Of a DNA stretch of 42,345 bases, positions 1-7,869 are shown piece after piece (the stretch's first letter is position 1; every line of letters starts with the position of its first letter). A program made the position numbers and the translations under genes. The DNA is from Cycloclasticus sp. symbiont of Poecilosclerida sp. M (GTDB lineage Bacteria > Pseudomonadota > Gammaproteobacteria > Methylococcales > Cycloclasticaceae), in contig LWTN01000234.1 of NCBI GenBank assembly GCA_002101225.1, positions 1 to 42,345 on the forward strand, read 5' to 3'. Below the pieces are notes generated by a model. The model did not search any database, was not told the origin of the DNA, and saw only the letters and a program-made list of their open reading frames with translations.

Positions 1-37
1 ATCTTTGTTCGCAGGTCAATTGGGTATATTTTTTCAT
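1..37 (-). CDS. IS30-family transposase, N-terminal fragment cut by window edge
   Basis: An ATG at 37 on the minus strand follows a good ribosome binding site (AGGAGTG) and opens a frame that runs off the window. The twelve visible residues, MKKYTQLTCEQR, match the characteristic start of IS30-family transposases (a Y-T-x-L-T-x-x-x-R core at the N-terminal helix-turn-helix). Only the first codons are visible, so the family call rests on this motif and on the terminal-repeat-like sequence at about 60-111. The rest of the element lies left of the window. Confidence 0.55.
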   Translation of the reverse strand, partial: MKKYTQLTCEQR

Positions 38-59
38 GTTTCACTCCTTTTTCTTGTCG

Positions 60-111
60 GATTAAAGAGTGGTTAATATACCCTTTTGACCAACTAACGA
101 GTGTTGCACTT
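60..111. repeat. Probable terminal end of the IS30-like element
   Basis: Between the transposase start and the PmoC-like gene lies a short untranslated stretch ending in GTGTTGCACTT (101-111). Ends of this kind are typical of IS30-family terminal repeats from memory. The other end of the element is outside the window, so neither the repeat pair nor a target duplication can be verified. The boundary falls inside the stop codon of the neighbouring PmoC-like gene. Confidence 0.4.
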
Positions 112-655
112 ATGATGTGAATTCAAGCAATGATACGATCCACATCAGCATCATTAGCCAATAAGCAGCTCTAAAAACGATGTTTAATAAGTCAGTGCTG
201 AATGTCATCATCTCTGGGTCTTGACTGGGCAAGAACATAAAAGGCGCCAGCGAATTACACACTAGAGCTATTTTAAATCGCCCATCAAACTCCCCATTGG
301 TGAGACGTGTTTTGGCGTAAAAAGCGATACTCCCCCCTATGACTAAATACGCGGGGTAAAAGATATTGTAGATAATCAAGCGTGTTGGGATACGCTCATC
401 ATCAGCTCTCGGCGCTATTTGATGCCAAGCCGTATCTTGGTGCGCCAAAAACCCACCGGACACGGACGCAAAAATAGCAAATACGAATAAAGCCATCAAG
501 AGGACCATATACCTTTTTATTTTGACTGAAGACACATCTATACAGCGTGACGTATCCAGATCTAGTGGCTGCTTTAACTTCCAATAAATAAGAAGGCATA
601 GCACGCCATAGAACGCTGCGATATAAACAATATTAAAATCATCTGTAGTAGGCAT
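110..655 (-). CDS. PmoC/AmoC-like copper membrane monooxygenase subunit C, short and truncated
   Basis: This 181-residue membrane protein resembles PmoC/AmoC, the copper-binding subunit of particulate methane/ammonia/hydrocarbon monooxygenases. The best match is residues 68-118: G-G-F, then Q-D-T-A-W-H-Q (73-79), a Y-P pair (100-101) and Y-A-K-T-R-L (113-118), in the order and spacing of PmoC. The family is usually about 250-260 residues. Here the first transmembrane segment and periplasmic part are missing and the C-terminus stops about 35 residues early, at an IS end. Against PmoC recalled from memory, ligand equivalents D74 and H78 remain. The third His of that site aligns with R92, and the Asn-His-His site aligns with E148, F152 and W166. 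It starts 11 bp after the dehydrogenase stop, last in the operon. The canonical C-A-B order would put subunits A and B further left. Homology is fairly secure; enzymatic function is doubtful. Confidence 0.7.
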   Translation of the reverse strand: MPTTDDFNIVYIAAFYGVLCLLIYWKLKQPLDLDTSRCIDVSSVKIKRYMVLLMALFVFAIFASVSGGFLAHQDTAWHQIAPRADDERIPTRLIIYNIFYPAYLVIGGSIAFYAKTRLTNGEFDGRFKIALVCNSLAPFMFLPSQDPEMMTFSTDLLNIVFRAAYWLMMLMWIVSLLEFTS

Positions 656-666
656 GTAAAACGTCT

Positions 667-1467
667 CTAGCCAATCATGCTATAGCCACCACTAACGCTT
701 AAAATCTGGCCTGTCACATGACCAGAAGCAGCATTAGATGACATGAATAAAACAGCTTTAGCCAAATCGTCAGGGCGCCCTACTTTCTTTAAAGGCAACG
801 CTTTTGCAATCATTTCAAACTGTTCTTCAGTAAACATTGCATCTTTTACTGACCACATACTATTTGAACCCACATCATCGTCTTCTTCAGGAATAGTAAC
901 GCCTGGGCATACTGCATTACAGCGAATACCAAAGCGCCCGTTTTCTTTCGCTATAGATTTCATCAAGCTGTTAATACCTGCTTTTAGCGCGCCATAAACA
1001 GCCTCTCTCGCTTCACCTTGGCGACTTGCATCCGAGCTTAAAGAAACAATAGAGCCCTTGGTTTTATTTCGCAGCATCACTTCAAGCACGGAGTGAGTAC
1101 AATTTAAATTACTCATAAAGTTGATTGCTATCAACTTTTGCCATAATTCAGGTGTTGTTTGAGTAAAGAACATTAAATCGTCCCACCCCACATTGTTAAC
1201 CAGCACATCAACACCGCCAAAGCTAGATTCAGCCTTCGCAACCATTGCCTTTACCTGTTCTAAATCCGTAACGTCTGTTTTAACCACTTGAACATCTGAA
1301 GCGCCCTTCTTTAGAGCCAACTCCGCGACTAGCCCTGCTTGCGTTTCATCAATGTCTGCCAACGTTATATTTGCGCCCTCTTCTGCAAAAGCCAATACAA
1401 TGCCGCGACCAATATTAGACGCTCCACCGGTGATGATGACTGATTTTTTTGCTAACTCAAGATTCAT
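667..1467 (-). CDS. SDR dehydrogenase, BadH-like (2-hydroxycyclohexanecarboxyl-CoA dehydrogenase family)
   Basis: This 266-residue classical short-chain dehydrogenase/reductase has the Rossmann motif TGGASNIG (residues 13-20), a cofactor-strand N-N-V-G (91-94), N115, S145 and the Y158-x-x-x-K162 catalytic pair. The segment NVGWDDLMFFTQTTPELW and the ending SVSGGYSMIG resemble BadH, which oxidises 2-hydroxycyclohexanecarboxyl-CoA to the 2-keto thioester in alicyclic acid degradation. The substrate here is not proven. A 3-hydroxyacyl-CoA or other alicyclic hydroxyacyl-CoA would fit the CoA lyase, MaoC, FadH and thiolase neighbours. All catalytic residues are present and the length is normal, unlike the adjacent broken genes. 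It lies fourth in the leftward operon. Confidence 0.8.
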   Translation of the reverse strand: MNLELAKKSVIITGGASNIGRGIVLAFAEEGANITLADIDETQAGLVAELALKKGASDVQVVKTDVTDLEQVKAMVAKAESSFGGVDVLVNNVGWDDLMFFTQTTPELWQKLIAINFMSNLNCTHSVLEVMLRNKTKGSIVSLSSDASRQGEAREAVYGALKAGINSLMKSIAKENGRFGIRCNAVCPGVTIPEEDDDVGSNSMWSVKDAMFTEEQFEMIAKALPLKKVGRPDDLAKAVLFMSSNAASGHVTGQILSVSGGYSMIG

Positions 1468-1476
1468 ACCTTTCTC

Positions 1477-2249
1477 CTAATTAAATTTATTTACTCGTTT
1501 AATAAGCCTGCACACCGACTCGATTGTTTCTTTTCTTGCCTGGTGATGCGGCATGTGTCTAATATTTTCTAGCACCTGCAACTCTAACGGTGCCGACAAA
1601 TTATTAATTAAGACTTTCATACTGAGCTGGTAGCCATAATCATCCGCCTGACCAAAAATCAAATGCACAGGACACCTAATATCTTGCAATTCTTTTTCAC
1701 ACGACCAATCATCAAACTCTTTTGATATCCACGCTTTAGCCCACCCATAAAAAAGCGTATCCGTTGCCTCGCTGTGAAACACCTTTAGTTTTTTAGCTAA
1801 ATCGTCACCTTCGTAGTCTTTTATTGCATCAACAATCCCTTCACGCACTTTCTTTTCTGGCACTAGAGGGGGTGCTTTTGCGCACACACCTAACACGCCA
1901 TCGTGCAGTGTCGCCGCAGCCATCAACGCTATAGCCGCACCAAAATAACGTTTGATAGCCCTAATTTTTCCATCACAGCAGGCAACACAACATTTGATTC
2001 AATATGCCGATAATTCGCCTCTCTAATTCTCGTTAAACAACCCGATTCGCCGTGCCCAAAACGCTCGTAAGCAACGACGGGTAAACCTGTGCTTTGCGCC
2101 AAGTCAGCCGGGTATCCCTTCCATGTTTCTAAACAATCTAAACCACCGTGCAGTAAGACAACACAGAGTTTATTTTTGTCCGGCTCGCCAACAATCAATA
2201 CCTTTAAGCGCATCTGATTAATGTCTAAAAAATGTTGCTGTTGATTCAT
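1477..2249 (-). pseudogene. Alpha/beta hydrolase, frameshifted by loss of the nucleophile elbow
   Basis: Two frames together make one alpha/beta hydrolase of about 260 residues. The first (from ATG at 2249 to a stop at 1929) carries the oxyanion region V-V-L-L-H-G-G-L and the family G-H-G-E-S segment. The second (read from about 1940 to 1477) carries the helix after the nucleophile, the acid strand H-L-I-F-G-Q-A-D and the catalytic-His region N-I-R-H-M-P-H-H. At the junction the expected V-G-H-S-x-G-G elbow is missing: the text goes from N-V-I-L-V directly to A-A-I-A-L-M in another frame. The shift fits a deletion of 1 mod 3 bases, for example 16. The catalytic serine is therefore absent and the gene cannot make an active hydrolase. 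An in-frame ATG at 1926 could only yield a C-terminal fragment. Confidence 0.8.
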
Positions 2250-2261
2250 AAAAATTACACT

Positions 2262-3287
2262 TTAAGCCATCAACGCGACGACAACCCAATCAAGAACTTG
2301 GGTGTTTTTAGCCGACTCAGGTGCCGTTTTAGCACGCTCTGCAAACACCTTAATATGTAAATCAACAAGCCCGCCACCCGTCGAGAGTGGCGTCTTATTA
2401 ATGATTTCGACTTCGCTGCGTAAAATATCATTTTCAAAAACTGGAGCAGGGTGGTCACAGTGCCGCCAAGCAAGTAGCGTCACTATGTCGGGCAAGGCCC
2501 TCAACATTTGTGCGGCAGCAATCGAGATTGTATGTCCCCCATACACTAAACGTTGGCCATAAGCACTAGCGCCCGCATCGGTATGGGTCATCGCCAAATT
2601 CAATGTCAATCGTGTAAGCTCAGGTGCTGAGGTAACCGTATCTCGCGCCTTTACAATGAACTTTACACCTTGTTCAACGCCCACAAAATGCGCACCTTTG
2701 ATTTTTTCTTTGAATCGATCTAGATGCCATGCGACTGGCACAGCCTCAACTAGCACCGCATGGCTAATATCTGATGGAATACTATCGAGCACATCGGCGT
2801 GACCCGTTTCTACGCCTGAATCGCGGCAAAGCACCATTGGGCAACGCCAGAAGTGTAAAATTTCATCGTGGTGTTGGTTTGTAACGCGCATTTCAAGCAC
2901 CACCAAACCCGATGTTGGACGGCCTTCTTTTTTTCTATTTTGGCGCAAACACGCCACTTGAGTTGTCGTCGTGAGCGTATCTCCAATAAAGACTGGTTTT
3001 TTTAACACCAAACCACGATAAAACAAATTACCCACCACATTTTGAGTAGCATAGGTTGTTTGTCCTATTGCCACTCCAATCACCATGGAGGGGTTAGCTA
3101 AAGGGTGTGTTGAGCCTGTAATTATTTCGCTTAACATATAATCAAGCGGCAACCTAAGGCGATCACCAAATAGCATTTGATGAACTGTTGCGTGTCCTTC
3201 GGTTAATGTTACCGACGGTGCCGGTGGCAAAAAATCACTCACCGAAAAATCCTCAAAGTAAGGCCCTTCGATTATCAACTCTTTCAT
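2262..3287 (-). CDS. MaoC-family acyl-CoA hydratase/dehydratase (double hotdog)
   Basis: A 341-residue protein with an N-terminal MaoC-like half (residues about 10-155; motifs TLTEGHATVHQMLFGDR, G-N-L-F-Y-R-G, G-D-T-L-T-T-T-T) and a second hotdog-like half (about 185-335) with H-T-D and a Y-G-G-H-T-I-S-I-A-A segment. The size and the G-D-T-L pattern recall the beta-methylmalyl-CoA dehydratase/mesaconyl-CoA hydratase group and (R)-specific enoyl-CoA hydratases. It overlaps the CoA lyase stop by four bases (ATGA), implying translational coupling; pairing of a MaoC hydratase with a CitE-type lyase is typical of beta-methylmalyl-CoA or citramalyl-CoA chemistry. The substrate is not determined from sequence. 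No damage is visible. Confidence 0.75.
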   Translation of the reverse strand: MKELIIEGPYFEDFSVSDFLPPAPSVTLTEGHATVHQMLFGDRLRLPLDYMLSEIITGSTHPLANPSMVIGVAIGQTTYATQNVVGNLFYRGLVLKKPVFIGDTLTTTTQVACLRQNRKKEGRPTSGLVVLEMRVTNQHHDEILHFWRCPMVLCRDSGVETGHADVLDSIPSDISHAVLVEAVPVAWHLDRFKEKIKGAHFVGVEQGVKFIVKARDTVTSAPELTRLTLNLAMTHTDAGASAYGQRLVYGGHTISIAAAQMLRALPDIVTLLAWRHCDHPAPVFENDILRSEVEIINKTPLSTGGGLVDLHIKVFAERAKTAPESAKNTQVLDWVVVALMA

Positions 3288-4156
3288 TCTCCACCGTCTT
3301 GTTTTAATGCGAGCTCATATCGCTGAACGATTCGTTGCTGTGATTGAATCACGGGTAAATCCACCATTTTATTTTCAAAACTAAACACGCCCTGCCCTTC
3401 AGCTTGCGCTTCATCCCATGCGGCTAAAATCGCATTGGCCTTTACAAGCTGTTCCTGCGTCGGGGTGTACACCTCGTTTACAATGCCGACTTGATTAGGG
3501 TGTATACACAATTTTCCCGTGTAGCCTAAATCCATACCCTGCTGTGCATCATGTCGAACTTGTTTTGCGTTTTTAACGTCCACACACACATTATCAATTG
3601 CCGATAAATTGTAGGCACGCGCTGCTAATGCAACCTGGCAACGTGCATGATGAATCCCACCGCGTGATGCGTCTGCATCTGTTAACCCTATGTCCGCTGC
3701 AAAATCAACGTGACCGAAGCATAAAGCATCAAATTCAGATAAAGCATTCGCAATTTCTTTAACCGCTAGTACACCCATCGCCGTTTCTATTAATGCAAAA
3801 ATATTATTTCCAGATGTCTCGCTAAATTCTTTAACTCGTAATACATCTTGTGGCGACTCACATTTAGGTAGCATTATTGAGCAATTATTCGTTTTGGAAA
3901 TAGCTTCCATATCGTCTTCAAACCAACCCGATGCAATACCATTTACACGTACAATTAATTGCCGACCTGTAAACTTTGATGACGTTATAGCCTGTACAAC
4001 CGCCCCACGTGCAGCTAACTTTTCACTCGGCGCAACCGCGTCTTCTAAATCAAATACCAATGCATCTGCTGGAATACCCACAGCCTTATCTAGGTGCTTT
4101 TGTTCTGATCCTGGTACAAACAAAATAGAGCGTAACAAGGTATTATTTAAATTCAT
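3284..4156 (-). CDS. HpcH/HpaI (CitE-like) CoA ester lyase
   Basis: A 290-residue CoA ester lyase of the citrate lyase beta/malyl-CoA lyase fold. Seen in the sequence: R-S-I-L-F-V-P-G (9-16), D-L-E-D-A-V (36-41), the substrate-binding I-V-R-V-N-G, the metal-binding Glu in F-A-L-I-E-T-A and Asp in C-F-G-H-V-D-F-A-A-D-I-G, and the terminal C-I-H-P-N-Q segment. Such enzymes reversibly cleave 3-hydroxy-dicarboxyl-CoA thioesters (malyl-, beta-methylmalyl-, citramalyl-CoA) to an acyl-CoA and glyoxylate or pyruvate. It is the first gene of the leftward operon, directly behind the divergent promoter region with the 4200-4217 palindrome, and is coupled to the MaoC gene. Which thioester it uses is unknown. 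Confidence 0.8.
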   Translation of the reverse strand: MNLNNTLLRSILFVPGSEQKHLDKAVGIPADALVFDLEDAVAPSEKLAARGAVVQAITSSKFTGRQLIVRVNGIASGWFEDDMEAISKTNNCSIMLPKCESPQDVLRVKEFSETSGNNIFALIETAMGVLAVKEIANALSEFDALCFGHVDFAADIGLTDADASRGGIHHARCQVALAARAYNLSAIDNVCVDVKNAKQVRHDAQQGMDLGYTGKLCIHPNQVGIVNEVYTPTQEQLVKANAILAAWDEAQAEGQGVFSFENKMVDLPVIQSQQRIVQRYELALKQDGGE

Positions 4157-4199
4157 GAATAGGGTTTATTTTAAAAATCAGAAATAAGCAAATATAATT

Positions 4200-4217
4200 A
4201 TCTAACAACTGTTAGAT
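4200..4217. promoter_or_regulatory. Perfect 18-bp palindrome, likely operator of the divergent catabolic operons
   Basis: In the 110-bp AT-rich gap between the lyase operon (leftward) and fadH (rightward) stands ATCTAACA-AC-TGTTAGAT, with two perfect 8-base arms around a 2-base centre. Its size and symmetry suit a dimeric TetR- or MarR-type repressor. It is placed so that one protein could control both operons. No regulator gene is in the window. Operator function is inference from symmetry and position. Confidence 0.55.
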
Positions 4218-4266
4218 TATAGCCTTACAAGATAGATTAAACAATACTCCGTACGCTAGTTAAATT

Positions 4267-6291
4267 ATGACTCATATATTATTTAAAGAAATTAAAGTTG
4301 GCACATTGACCTTACCTAATCGCGTCATTATGGGCTCAATGCACACGGGATTAGATCATACTGATGACCCTTTTAACCGTATGGCCGCCTTTTACAAAGA
4401 ACGCGCTGAAGGCGGCGTTGGACTCATTGTAACGGGTGGTGTATCACCAAATGAGCAGGGATTAATAAGTCCTGGGGCGACAATTCTTAATAAGCCTGAA
4501 CAAGTTGATTCCTACCGCATCATCACCGAGGCGGCACATCGTGCGGGCAGTAAAATTATCATGCAGATATTACACGCGGGTCGCTATGCAAAGCAGCATA
4601 AACTTGTAGCACCCAGCGCTATACGCTCACCCATTAATAAATTTGAGCCACAAGAAATTACGCACGATAACATCCTACAAACTATTAAAGACTTTGCTAA
4701 TAGTGCTGAACTTGCCCAACAAGCGGGATTTGATGGCATTGAAATCCTAGGGTCTGAAGGCTATTTTTTAAATGAATTTACTGCGCCCCGTACTAATAAA
4801 CGCAATGACCAATGGGGTGGAAGCTTAGAAAATAGGATTCGTTTCCCACTCGACGTCGTCCGCGCCATTCGCCAAAAACTGGGGACAAACTTTCTTATTC
4901 AATACCGTATGTCTGTTCTTGAGTTAGTGGATGAGGGTTGGAATATAGACGACGCAAAACAATTTGCTCAAGCGCTCGAAGCCGTTGGAATCGACATTAT
5001 TAATACCGGTATCGGCTGGCACGAAGCGACCATCCCAACCATTGCTATGCAAGTGCCTAGAGCCGCATTTAGCTGGGCGACGGCGAAAATTAAATCTGCT
5101 GTTAACATCCCCGTAGCCGCCGCTAATCGAATAAACACGGTAGATACTGCAGAAGCTATCTTGCAGCGCGGTGATGCTGATTTGGTGTATATGGCTAGGC
5201 CTTTTCTTGCCGACGCTAACTTCGTAGTAAAAGCACAGCAAGGGCGAGCTGATGAAATAAACACGTGTATCGCTTGTAACCAATCGTGTTTGGATAAAAT
5301 ATTTGTGGGGCAAACTGCCAGCTGTTTAGTCAACCCACGGGCTTGCCATGAAACACTTCTACCCATTTTATCGACGACATCTAACGTTAAAAAAATAGCT
5401 GTTATAGGTGCGGGTGCTGCGGGTTTATCTTTCTCCGTTGAGGCCGCGAAGAATGGACATAACGTGACGCTGTTTGAATCCAAGTCTGAAATTGGTGGGC
5501 AAATGCTCTACGCCCATTTAGTACCCGGCAAAGAAGAATTTGACGAATTGTTGCGTTATTTCACCGTGATGCTAGAAAAATATTCGGTAACATTAAAAAC
5601 CAATCACACCGTCGAGGCTGAACAACTTAAGCAAGAAGGCTTTGATTTGATTGCTCTAGCTTCTGGCATTAAACCCAGACCACTAGACATCCCCGGCATT
5701 AATCATCCGAGCGTTATGAGCTATGAAGAAGCCTTTACACAACCCGATAAAATTGGAGCAACCGTCGTTATTATTGGCGCCGGCGGTATCGGTTTTGATA
5801 TGGCTGAATTTATATCGCACGAAGCTAGCGAACAAGATCCTATACAGGCCTACAACGAAAGCTGGGGTATTGACCCCGAGGGTCTTCAAGCTGGTTCTCT
5901 TACGAGTCCAGTGCCTCACAAGCCCATTCGTAATATAAGCCTTTTACAACGAAAAGCCGGTAAATTTGGTCGCACGCTTGGTAAATCAACGGGTTGGATT
6001 CACATGATTGAGCTACAAAAACGTGGCGTTCAGATGATAGGCGACCTCAGCTATACAAAGATAGATGATCAAGGCTTACACATTGAGCGTGAAGGCGAGG
6101 CACAAATACTAACAGCCGACACCATCATCATCTGTGCCGGGCAAGAATCCCATGATCAAATCGCTGAGTCATTAAACGGTGCCGCTAAGCAAGTCGTACG
6201 AATTGGCGGCGTAAAACAAGTTAAAGAACTGGATGCTGCGCAAGCCATTAGCGACGGTATCGAACTTGCTTATCAACTAGAACAGGGATAA
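4267..6291 (+). CDS. fadH: 2,4-dienoyl-CoA reductase (NADPH), FadH
   Basis: A 674-residue flavo-iron-sulfur reductase, nearly collinear with E. coli FadH (672 residues). It reduces 2,4-dienoyl-CoA intermediates of unsaturated fatty acid or ring-cleavage beta-oxidation. The N-terminal TIM barrel (old yellow enzyme type) carries the active-site Y166 (G-S-E-G-Y) and H252 (G-I-G-W-H-E). The 4Fe-4S cysteines are C334, C337, C341 and C353 (C-I-A-C-N-Q-S-C). The C-terminal part has the FAD motif G-A-G-A-A-G (about 379) and the NADPH motif G-A-G-G-I-G (about 503). All are intact. It is the first gene of the rightward operon, two bases from the thiolase gene, under the shared palindrome. It could serve general fatty acid oxidation or a specific pathway of the island. 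Confidence 0.93.
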   Translation: MTHILFKEIKVGTLTLPNRVIMGSMHTGLDHTDDPFNRMAAFYKERAEGGVGLIVTGGVSPNEQGLISPGATILNKPEQVDSYRIITEAAHRAGSKIIMQILHAGRYAKQHKLVAPSAIRSPINKFEPQEITHDNILQTIKDFANSAELAQQAGFDGIEILGSEGYFLNEFTAPRTNKRNDQWGGSLENRIRFPLDVVRAIRQKLGTNFLIQYRMSVLELVDEGWNIDDAKQFAQALEAVGIDIINTGIGWHEATIPTIAMQVPRAAFSWATAKIKSAVNIPVAAANRINTVDTAEAILQRGDADLVYMARPFLADANFVVKAQQGRADEINTCIACNQSCLDKIFVGQTASCLVNPRACHETLLPILSTTSNVKKIAVIGAGAAGLSFSVEAAKNGHNVTLFESKSEIGGQMLYAHLVPGKEEFDELLRYFTVMLEKYSVTLKTNHTVEAEQLKQEGFDLIALASGIKPRPLDIPGINHPSVMSYEEAFTQPDKIGATVVIIGAGGIGFDMAEFISHEASEQDPIQAYNESWGIDPEGLQAGSLTSPVPHKPIRNISLLQRKAGKFGRTLGKSTGWIHMIELQKRGVQMIGDLSYTKIDDQGLHIEREGEAQILTADTIIICAGQESHDQIAESLNGAAKQVVRIGGVKQVKELDAAQAISDGIELAYQLEQG

Positions 6292-6293
6292 CC

Positions 6294-7156
6294 ATGTTAA
6301 ACGCATACATTTATGACGGCATAAGAACCCCTTTTGGGAAGTACTGTAGTTCACTTTCTCATGTGCGCCCTGATGATTTAGCTGCTAGCGTCATTAAGGC
6401 GCTCGTTGAGCGCAATAAATTCGACCCTCTGCTCATCGATGATGTAATCCTTGGCTGCGCCTGCCAATCGGGCGAGGACAGTCGAAATATAGCACGCTAC
6501 GCCACCTTGCTTGCGGGGCTTCCTGTTGAGGTCAGCGGCCAGACTATTAACCGTTTATGTGGTAGCAGTCTTGCGGCCATTATCGATTCTGCCCGCGCCA
6601 TTAGCTGTGGAGAAGGCGATGTGTTTATTGCCGGTGGTGTAGAAAGTATGACGCGAGCGCCACTTACCTTTAATAAAAGCAATACGGCTTACAGCAAAGA
6701 TATCACCATCTACGACAGTGCTATCGGTGTTCGTTTCCCCAACCCTATTATTGGCAAGCAATATGGTCATGACGCAATGCCTATTACCGCCGATAATATT
6801 GCAAAAGCTGACAATATCAGCCGTGAAAGTTGCGATGCTCTTGCTTACAACTCGCAACAAAAATGGTCTGCTGCAACTGCAAGCGGCTTCTTCGACGATG
6901 AGATTATTGCCGTCAGCATCCCGCAAAAAAGGGGCAAGCCCGACATTATTGTCGATAAAGATGAGCACCCACGGGCTGGCGCGACCTTAGATAAAATGGC
7001 GGTGCCATTGCAGTCGGCCACCCACTTGGCGCATCTGGCGCGCGTATCGCTTTAACGGCCGCTAGACAGTTGCAGCAAACAGGTGGGCGCTATGCACTGA
7101 TTTCGATGTGTATCGGGGTAGGCCAAGGTATTGCGATGATCATCGAACTTACTTAA
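6294..7156 (+). pseudogene. Acetyl-CoA acyltransferase (thiolase) with large internal deletion
   Basis: The frame from 6294 gives the thiolase N-terminal domain with I-R-T-P-F-G-K (10-16), the nucleophile Cys in N-R-L-C-G-S-S (about residue 89), G-G-V-E-S-M-T-R-A-P and an E-H-P-R-A-G segment. At about 6998 it jumps, out of frame, to the C-terminal part. Reading from 6998 gives [14 protein letters not shown], then M-C-I-G-V-G-Q-G and the normal end at TAA 7154-7156. About 110-130 residues, including the usual N-A-S-G-x-N-D-G-A region, are gone, so the 253-codon product ends in unrelated residues. All three catalytic residues exist in the DNA but in two frames. The breakpoint reads AATGGCGG, and a repeat of AATGGCG between D-K-M-A and the usual N-G-G-A codons would explain the deletion. 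It directly follows fadH. Confidence 0.88.
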
Positions 7157-7163
7157 AAAACAG

Positions 7164-7869
7164 GGGGCTGCCACCTACCATATCAAATGTTAGGGTTGGT
7201 AAATGTATATAAAGCATTGTAAATCAAGAAGAAATAAGCAGTTTGAGTTAATGAAATACTTTGTTGCCGGTACGACAGCAAGAACAGCAGCAAGTTTAGT
7301 CGGTATACATCGCAATACAGCAATAAGGTTTTTCCGTAAACTACGAGAGAAAGTTGCTCAAGTTCAACTAAGTCGTAGCGAGCCATTTAATGGCATTGTG
7401 AATTAGATGAAAGTTATTTTGGTGGCGTACGCAAAGGTAAACGCGGTAGAGGTGCCGCAGGAAAAGTTGCGGTTTTTGGTATTCTTAAAAGAGGTGGTAA
7501 GGTTTATACACAAATAGTTTTAGATGCTAAGGCAAACACTTCAATGCCGATCATACGGCACAAGGTAGAGCCTGACAGCATTGTTTATACTGATTGTTGG
7601 AAGTCATATAATGCACTGGATGTATCCGAGTTTAAGCATTACCGAATCAACCACAGTCGACTATTTGCTAAAAAACAAAACCATATAAATGGTATTGAAA
7701 ACTTCTGGAATCAGGCGAAAAGGCATATGCGAAAGTTTAACGGTATCCCCACAGAGCACTTCCATTTATTCTTAAAAGAATGTGAATGGCGGTTCAACAC
7801 AGGCGCACCAGACGAGCTTTTAATAGACTTGAAAAAACTATTAAAAGAGAATTATTAGGTGTCAGCCCC
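7164..7869 (+). mobile_element. IS1595-family (IS1016-like) insertion sequence, 706 bp
   Basis: The terminal inverted repeats are GGGGCTGCCACCTA at 7164-7177 and its near-perfect complement at 7856-7869, with 13 of 14 positions matching. They enclose a single transposase gene that reads left to right and whose stop lies in the right repeat. Length, repeat sequence and transposase match the IS1016 group. The family normally makes 8-bp target duplications, but the flanks AAAAACAG (7156-7163) and AAAATGAA (7870-7877) do not match. The element begins 7 bp after the broken thiolase stop. Confidence 0.88.
7203..7858 (+). pseudogene. IS1016-like DDE transposase, one frameshift
   Basis: The N-terminal part (from ATG 7203) has the A-G-T-T-A-R-T-A-A-S-L-V helix-turn-helix typical of IS1016. 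Near 7400 the frame runs into a stop. Restoring one base in GTGAATTAG (to GTGGAATTAG) gives E-L-D-E-S-Y-F-G-G, then G-K-R-G-R-G-A-A-G-K-V and the rest to 7858, including V-Y-T-D-C-W-K-S-Y, H-I-N-G-I-E-N-F-W-N-Q-A-K-R-H and E-C-E-W-R-F-N. About 218 residues result, the full family length. A single-base deletion therefore inactivates an otherwise complete transposase. Programmed frameshifting is not expected in this group and no slippery run is obvious at the site. Confidence 0.85.

Follow-up and report, generated by a model that had tools for sequence, protein, structure and literature searches.

The stretch analysed here (the window) is a 42,345 nt contig, C234, from a Cycloclasticus symbiont genome totaling 2.32 Mb, and it begins with the remains of a short gene for a divergent relative of PmoC. 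The gene represents a paralogue of PmoC, found in Cycloclasticus and a related genus, that has lost its N-terminal helix along with the third CuC ligand and all of the CuD site. It is under purifying selection and stands alone as the last gene of an acyl-CoA operon. Because related oil-degrading marine bacteria keep it intact beside the same acyl-CoA genes, its product probably has a new, non-standard job. Overall, we give an about even chance to an accessory membrane protein that arose from PmoC and has ceased to be a standard copper subunit. Features of the window are listed in Table 1.

Table 1. Coordinates of features in the window.
Feature	Position	Strand	Remarks
End of IS30-like element	1..127	-	Removes 3' end of PmoC-like gene; identical to other genome copies up to 127
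PmoC-like short protein, 181 aa	110..655	-	181 codons, start ATG; native residues 1-176, residues 177-181 coded by IS end
E148 to F152	200..214	-	Stand where CuD ligands N227 and H231 align
R92 codon	380..382	-	Stands where third CuC ligand H173 aligns
H72-Q-D74-T-A-W-H78	422..442	-	D74 and H78 = CuC ligands D156/H160; H72 replaces canonical E154
SDR dehydrogenase	667..1467	-	Upstream of PmoC-like gene and co-oriented, 11 nt away; closest NCBIfam model BadH, below cut-off
Alpha/beta hydrolase, split by frameshift	1477..2249	-	Pieces 1477-1926 and 1929-2249
MaoC-like hydratase, 341 aa	2262..3287	-	Profile match
CitE-like lyase (HpcH/HpaI family)	3284..4156	-	Profile match
OYE-type FMN/FAD reductase, 674 aa	4267..6291	+	Profile match
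5' part of thiolase, interrupted	6294..7055	+	Best model 3-oxoadipyl-CoA thiolase
IS1595-family transposase fragment	7544..7858	+	Profile match; thiolase interrupted ahead of fragment

By family profile, the window protein is significantly an AmoC/PmoC homologue, with an E-value of 1.1e-13 to Pfam AmoC (PF04896; 51.6 bits, gathering score 26.7), and its relatives likewise exceed the cut-off. It is far below the equivalog level of the NCBIfam models for AmoC (59.4 bits, cut-off 319) and for CH4/NH3 monooxygenase C (49.6 bits, cut-off 280.6). Every match in a PDB sequence search was a PmoC/AmoC chain (best E = 1.1e-10). AF2 predicts helical bundles both for the window protein and for its orthologue in genome G008 (pLDDT 84.8), and the top Foldseek matches of the latter model are again PmoC/AmoC chains, with TMq of 0.58-0.71 among the best. 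PF04896 matches of the short proteins begin at profile position 58 or later, the N-terminal part being absent. A first-pass annotation, made from the sequence alone, had described a PmoC/AmoC-like protein with a missing N-terminal helix and had proposed a profile search and structure prediction as checks; the profile result and the predicted PmoC fold of the orthologue both bear it out. The same genome also encodes a canonical PmoC (263 aa, contig C210), a PmoA (C244), and a divergent lone PmoC-like protein (236 aa, C233) adjoining smpB.

The CuC ligands of PmoC are Asp, His, and His, and the CuD ligands, in bacterial enzymes, Asn, His, and His (PMC12576850). These positions were compared in an alignment of 58 sequences (38 canonical PmoC, 8 of the short type, and 12 of the smpB-adjacent type), numbered after M. 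capsulatus PmoC, with E154 obtained by counting back from D156. All 38 canonical proteins have E, D, H, H, N, H, and H at E154, D156, H160, H173, N227, H231, and H245, while ligands have been lost in 20 of 20 proteins of the other two families. Among the eight short proteins, the E154 column is always His and the D156 column always Asp; H160 is His in seven and Tyr in one, and H173 is replaced by Arg (six) or Ser (two), leaving an incomplete CuC set of Asp and mostly His, with Arg or Ser as the third residue. In the CuD columns they have S/D/E at N227, L/F/I at H231, and a gap at H245. D74 is invariant in both ligand-less families and H72 is found in 19 of the 20 proteins; S153, R162, and W172 are invariant within the short type (n = 8), and the core positions D74, W77, Q79, P101, P138, and W172 are retained.

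Most of what the first-pass annotation said about these sites stands. It had matched D74 and H78 to the PmoC core and R92 to the third ligand, and they do align with D156, H160, and H173. Its assignment of E148, F152, and W166 to the Asn-His-His site describes the window protein, where the CuD set is absent (E148, F152, and, in the H245 column, a gap adjoining W166). As residues common to intact short homologues, however, only W166 qualifies (7/8), E148 and F152 being variable among orthologues. The annotation would have been refuted by ligands present elsewhere in the alignment; for His this is excluded, since the window protein has exactly two histidines, at 72 and 78.

The smpB-adjacent proteins are related to the short ones, similarly lone and ligand-less and with the same change of E154 to His (His in 11, Tyr in one), and they keep the Asp at D156. 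They differ in being 227-241 aa in most cases, with the first helix kept, and in having mainly Tyr at H160 (11/12, with Ser in 1/12) and Gln at H173 (12/12); their CuD columns hold variable, mainly hydrophobic residues, then a gap. The genes are mostly beside smpB, as in the window genome (C233:3603-4313, L040) and at L042:7938-8621, with relatives also in L043, L044, L045, L046, and L059; in G011 the gene is present twice in tandem, and one of the copies shows a degraded motif (YQDVTSSQ). In a tree, the ligand-less proteins of both types split from 36 canonical PmoC with 100/100 support, and the smpB type forms a clade (100/99). The short group is weakly supported as a single clade (58/25) and could be paraphyletic. 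No short-type gene was found outside the genus in 369 genomes of the class or 399 of the phylum, and PmoC elsewhere in the class sample is canonical wherever its ligands were checked. Scanning 84,980 species genomes for the motif turned up 14 loci, every one in a gammaproteobacterial record and mostly from Cycloclasticus. Two plasmid matches are annotated as ordinary subunit C.

Intact short homologues, which the first-pass annotation had suggested looking for, are present in several Cycloclasticus and the related genus. G004, G005, G008, G014, and G029 have intact orthologues of 190-193 aa that share 47-55% identity with the window protein; in G023, which belongs to another family of the order, the protein is 220 aa long and has Tyr at H78. 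The short length is thus native, not a truncation product. For G005 and G014, dN is 0.020 and dS 0.351, the resulting dN/dS of 0.057 indicating purifying selection; this value comes from one close pair, dS being near or beyond saturation in the remaining ones. Because intact orthologues share the loss and are under purifying selection, ligand loss in the short type is not decay, and the decayed hydrocarbon monooxygenase that had been offered as an alternative is rejected. A family of decaying pseudogenes is very improbable: it would suit the cut window copy with its eroding cluster, the G007 orthologue, which is without the N-terminal helix, and a gene that evolves faster than its neighbours, but it has to contend with intact frames in five other genomes, the longer G023 form, and the low dN/dS. 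It is largely refuted for the family and holds for the window copy.

In that copy, the last five codons (LEFTS) are IS-derived, since other copies of the element in the genome match the window exactly up to position 127. Roughly 20 native residues have been lost from the C-terminus, and the missing 3' tail was not found elsewhere in the genome. That the ligand loss is older than the IS, as first claimed, is confirmed by orthologues without the IS cut, which show the same loss. The acyl-CoA cluster (window 1477-7858) is also eroding in this genome, again more recently than the ligand loss; besides the damaged hydrolase and thiolase, it lacks the acyl-CoA dehydrogenase and enoyl-CoA hydratase found between CitE and OYE in G004, G005, G007, and G008. 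The IS30-like element has many copies in the window genome, mostly at contig ends, so they probably break the assembly.

At intact loci the operon runs enoyl-CoA hydratase, acyl-CoA dehydrogenase, CitE, MaoC, hydrolase, SDR, and PmoC-like, with the OYE reductase and thiolase pointing away from it. Convergent to it are genes for DUF2889, a transglutaminase-like protein, an acyl-CoA dehydrogenase, further ligases, and a TetR regulator. The PmoC-like gene is last in the operon, in keeping with the tie to a CoA pathway first proposed from the window, and usually near DUF2889: immediately adjacent in G004, G007, G008, and G023, separated by a MAPEG gene in G005 and G014, and 5.5 kb away in G029. 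The window genome has DUF2889 on another contig (C149), whose end has a decayed IS30-like stretch. The pmoA/pmoB-like neighbours that the first-pass annotation had suggested looking for were absent from all short-type loci read, so hidden ones are ruled out there; their absence alone is not decisive, since singleton C genes are known. Other proteobacteria likewise have DUF2889 in acyl-CoA clusters, there without PmoC (among them L033:8864-9415, L120:615-1172, and L134:12001-12579, the last in a region that also holds a transglutaminase-like gene). Its Cycloclasticus copies have conserved Cys/His motifs (HDC, GCTH, GCHAW), and no function for it is reported in the literature searched. The best score of the SDR is to 2-hydroxycyclohexanecarboxyl-CoA dehydrogenase, and cyclohexanecarbonyl-CoA types are among the matches of the acyl-CoA dehydrogenases; as all these scores are below cut-off, an alicyclic or aromatic acid route for the cluster is a guess.

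All eight genomes bearing the short gene encode PmoA. The cluster MaoC gene occurs in 13 of 20 genomes, seven of which have the short gene, each with PmoA; G001, G003, G015, and G017 have the cluster and neither PmoA nor any PmoC-like gene. The remaining two, G011 and G013, have PmoA and a rearranged or partial cluster with no short gene, and G023 has the short gene with no MaoC cluster; given these exceptions, a strict link between the short gene and the CoA cluster is rejected. A hand-calculated one-sided Fisher test yields 36/1716 = 0.02, in few genomes, several of them incomplete, and ignoring both incompleteness and kinship. In a MaoC tree, G001, G017, and G015 group with G008 and G004 while G003 is placed elsewhere, which requires at least two changes. 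The absence of PmoA from some genomes agrees with a report that phmo genes are missing from the clade of cultivated Cycloclasticus isolates and present in the other Cycloclasticus MAGs it covered (PMC12510462).

The SDR/DUF2889 junction has other occupants where the PmoC-like gene is missing. In G017 it holds a BenAB-like Rieske oxygenase pair (L165:5104-7032), and in G001 such a pair (L164:1210-3133) adjoins DUF2889, with the SDR on another contig. In G003 there is a 72-aa hydrophobic ORF (L167:604-822) with no NCBIfam match at the limit used, and in G015 an unrelated insertion. Another BenAB-like pair lies beside a PmoC-like gene at L060:7763-9636. A Rieske oxygenase in the PmoC-like position is suggestive, but fits a permissive junction as well.

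An accessory role is favoured by the AmoC homology and fold together with ligand loss in 20/20 proteins against intact sets in 38/38; by the dN/dS of 0.057 and a conserved gene order without pmoA/pmoB; and by the presence of PmoA in every genome with the short gene and the lack of that gene in the four cluster genomes without PmoA. The protein would retain the PmoC helix bundle, with H72, D74, Q79, and, in the short type, S153 and R162 forming a polar rather than a standard copper center. It may dock on and modulate the cell's own PmoA/PmoB complex, or it may handle hydrophobic intermediates at the membrane for the adjoining CoA enzymes. The step from the observed losses to an accessory membrane protein, not an oxygen-activating subunit, is tentative when taken by itself, at somewhat under an even chance. 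Retention of D74, W77, Q79, and mostly H78 would be surprising in a protein that binds no metal; G011, G013, and G023 do not follow the pattern; and the PmoA link comes from few genomes, several of them incomplete.

The main rival, which we consider unlikely, is a stand-alone PmoC-derived membrane oxygenase that supplies an oxygenation step to the CoA pathway from a new metal site at H72, D74, and H78 or Tyr. Conservation of these residues would suit such a site, as would the Rieske pairs at the G017 junction and beside the relative in L060. However, H78 is Tyr in G023 and the smpB type, and H72 precedes D74 by two residues within one unbroken predicted helix, so the two should face apart and a single shared site would not be the simplest reading; the junction, which also takes a MAPEG gene, the 72-aa ORF, and unrelated inserts, may simply be permissive. 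We see still less reason to expect a diverged subunit taking the place of PmoC in the cell's PmoA/PmoB complex and acting as a regulator by giving an alternative or inactive enzyme; the constant company of PmoA and the retained core would allow it, but the missing N-terminal helix, a gene adjoining CoA rather than phmo genes, and the change of E154 to His argue otherwise. Rather doubtful, too, is a broader proposal in which both ligand-less families would form a new functional branch of the CuMMO superfamily, a C-type subunit without its own A and B whose rebuilt H-x-D-x-x-W-H/Y center would differ in metal content and perform or gate an acyl-CoA-linked oxygenation.

The identity of the catalytic copper site in PmoC is still disputed, and a selected relative lacking one CuC ligand and all those of CuD amounts to ligand removal carried out by nature; evidently, the PmoC bundle can be retained for another purpose. 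Annotation of pmoC by PF04896 will label such genes monooxygenase subunit C, although they cannot be standard ones. A lone, ligand-less PmoC family was not described in the literature searched, whose coverage is partial, so that absence is not proof. The short protein resembles PmoC/AmoC/XmoC (PF04896) in sequence and predicted fold, and keeps the equivalents of D156, mostly H160, W77, Q79, and the Y-P block. It differs in lacking H173, N227, H231, H245, and the N-terminal helix, in having His for E154, and in its lack of pmoA/pmoB neighbours and scores far below equivalog cut-offs. By comparison, divergent archaeal enzymes have lost the D site but retain a complete C site, and even in them the Asp-His-His set of CuC is described as fully conserved (PMC9038741). 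Singleton xmoC genes, known in methanotrophs and nitrifiers (PMC6215863), are similar in that a C-subunit gene lies apart from A and B in a genome that also has a full operon; compared by description, they are only extra xmoC copies, whereas the short genes encode ligand-less proteins of about 190 aa and are tied to CoA genes. The phmo system of Cycloclasticus (PMC12510462) is from the same genus, and the window genome has a canonical PmoC and PmoA of its own; phmo has subunits A to D, while the window gene encodes a lone, divergent C-like protein.
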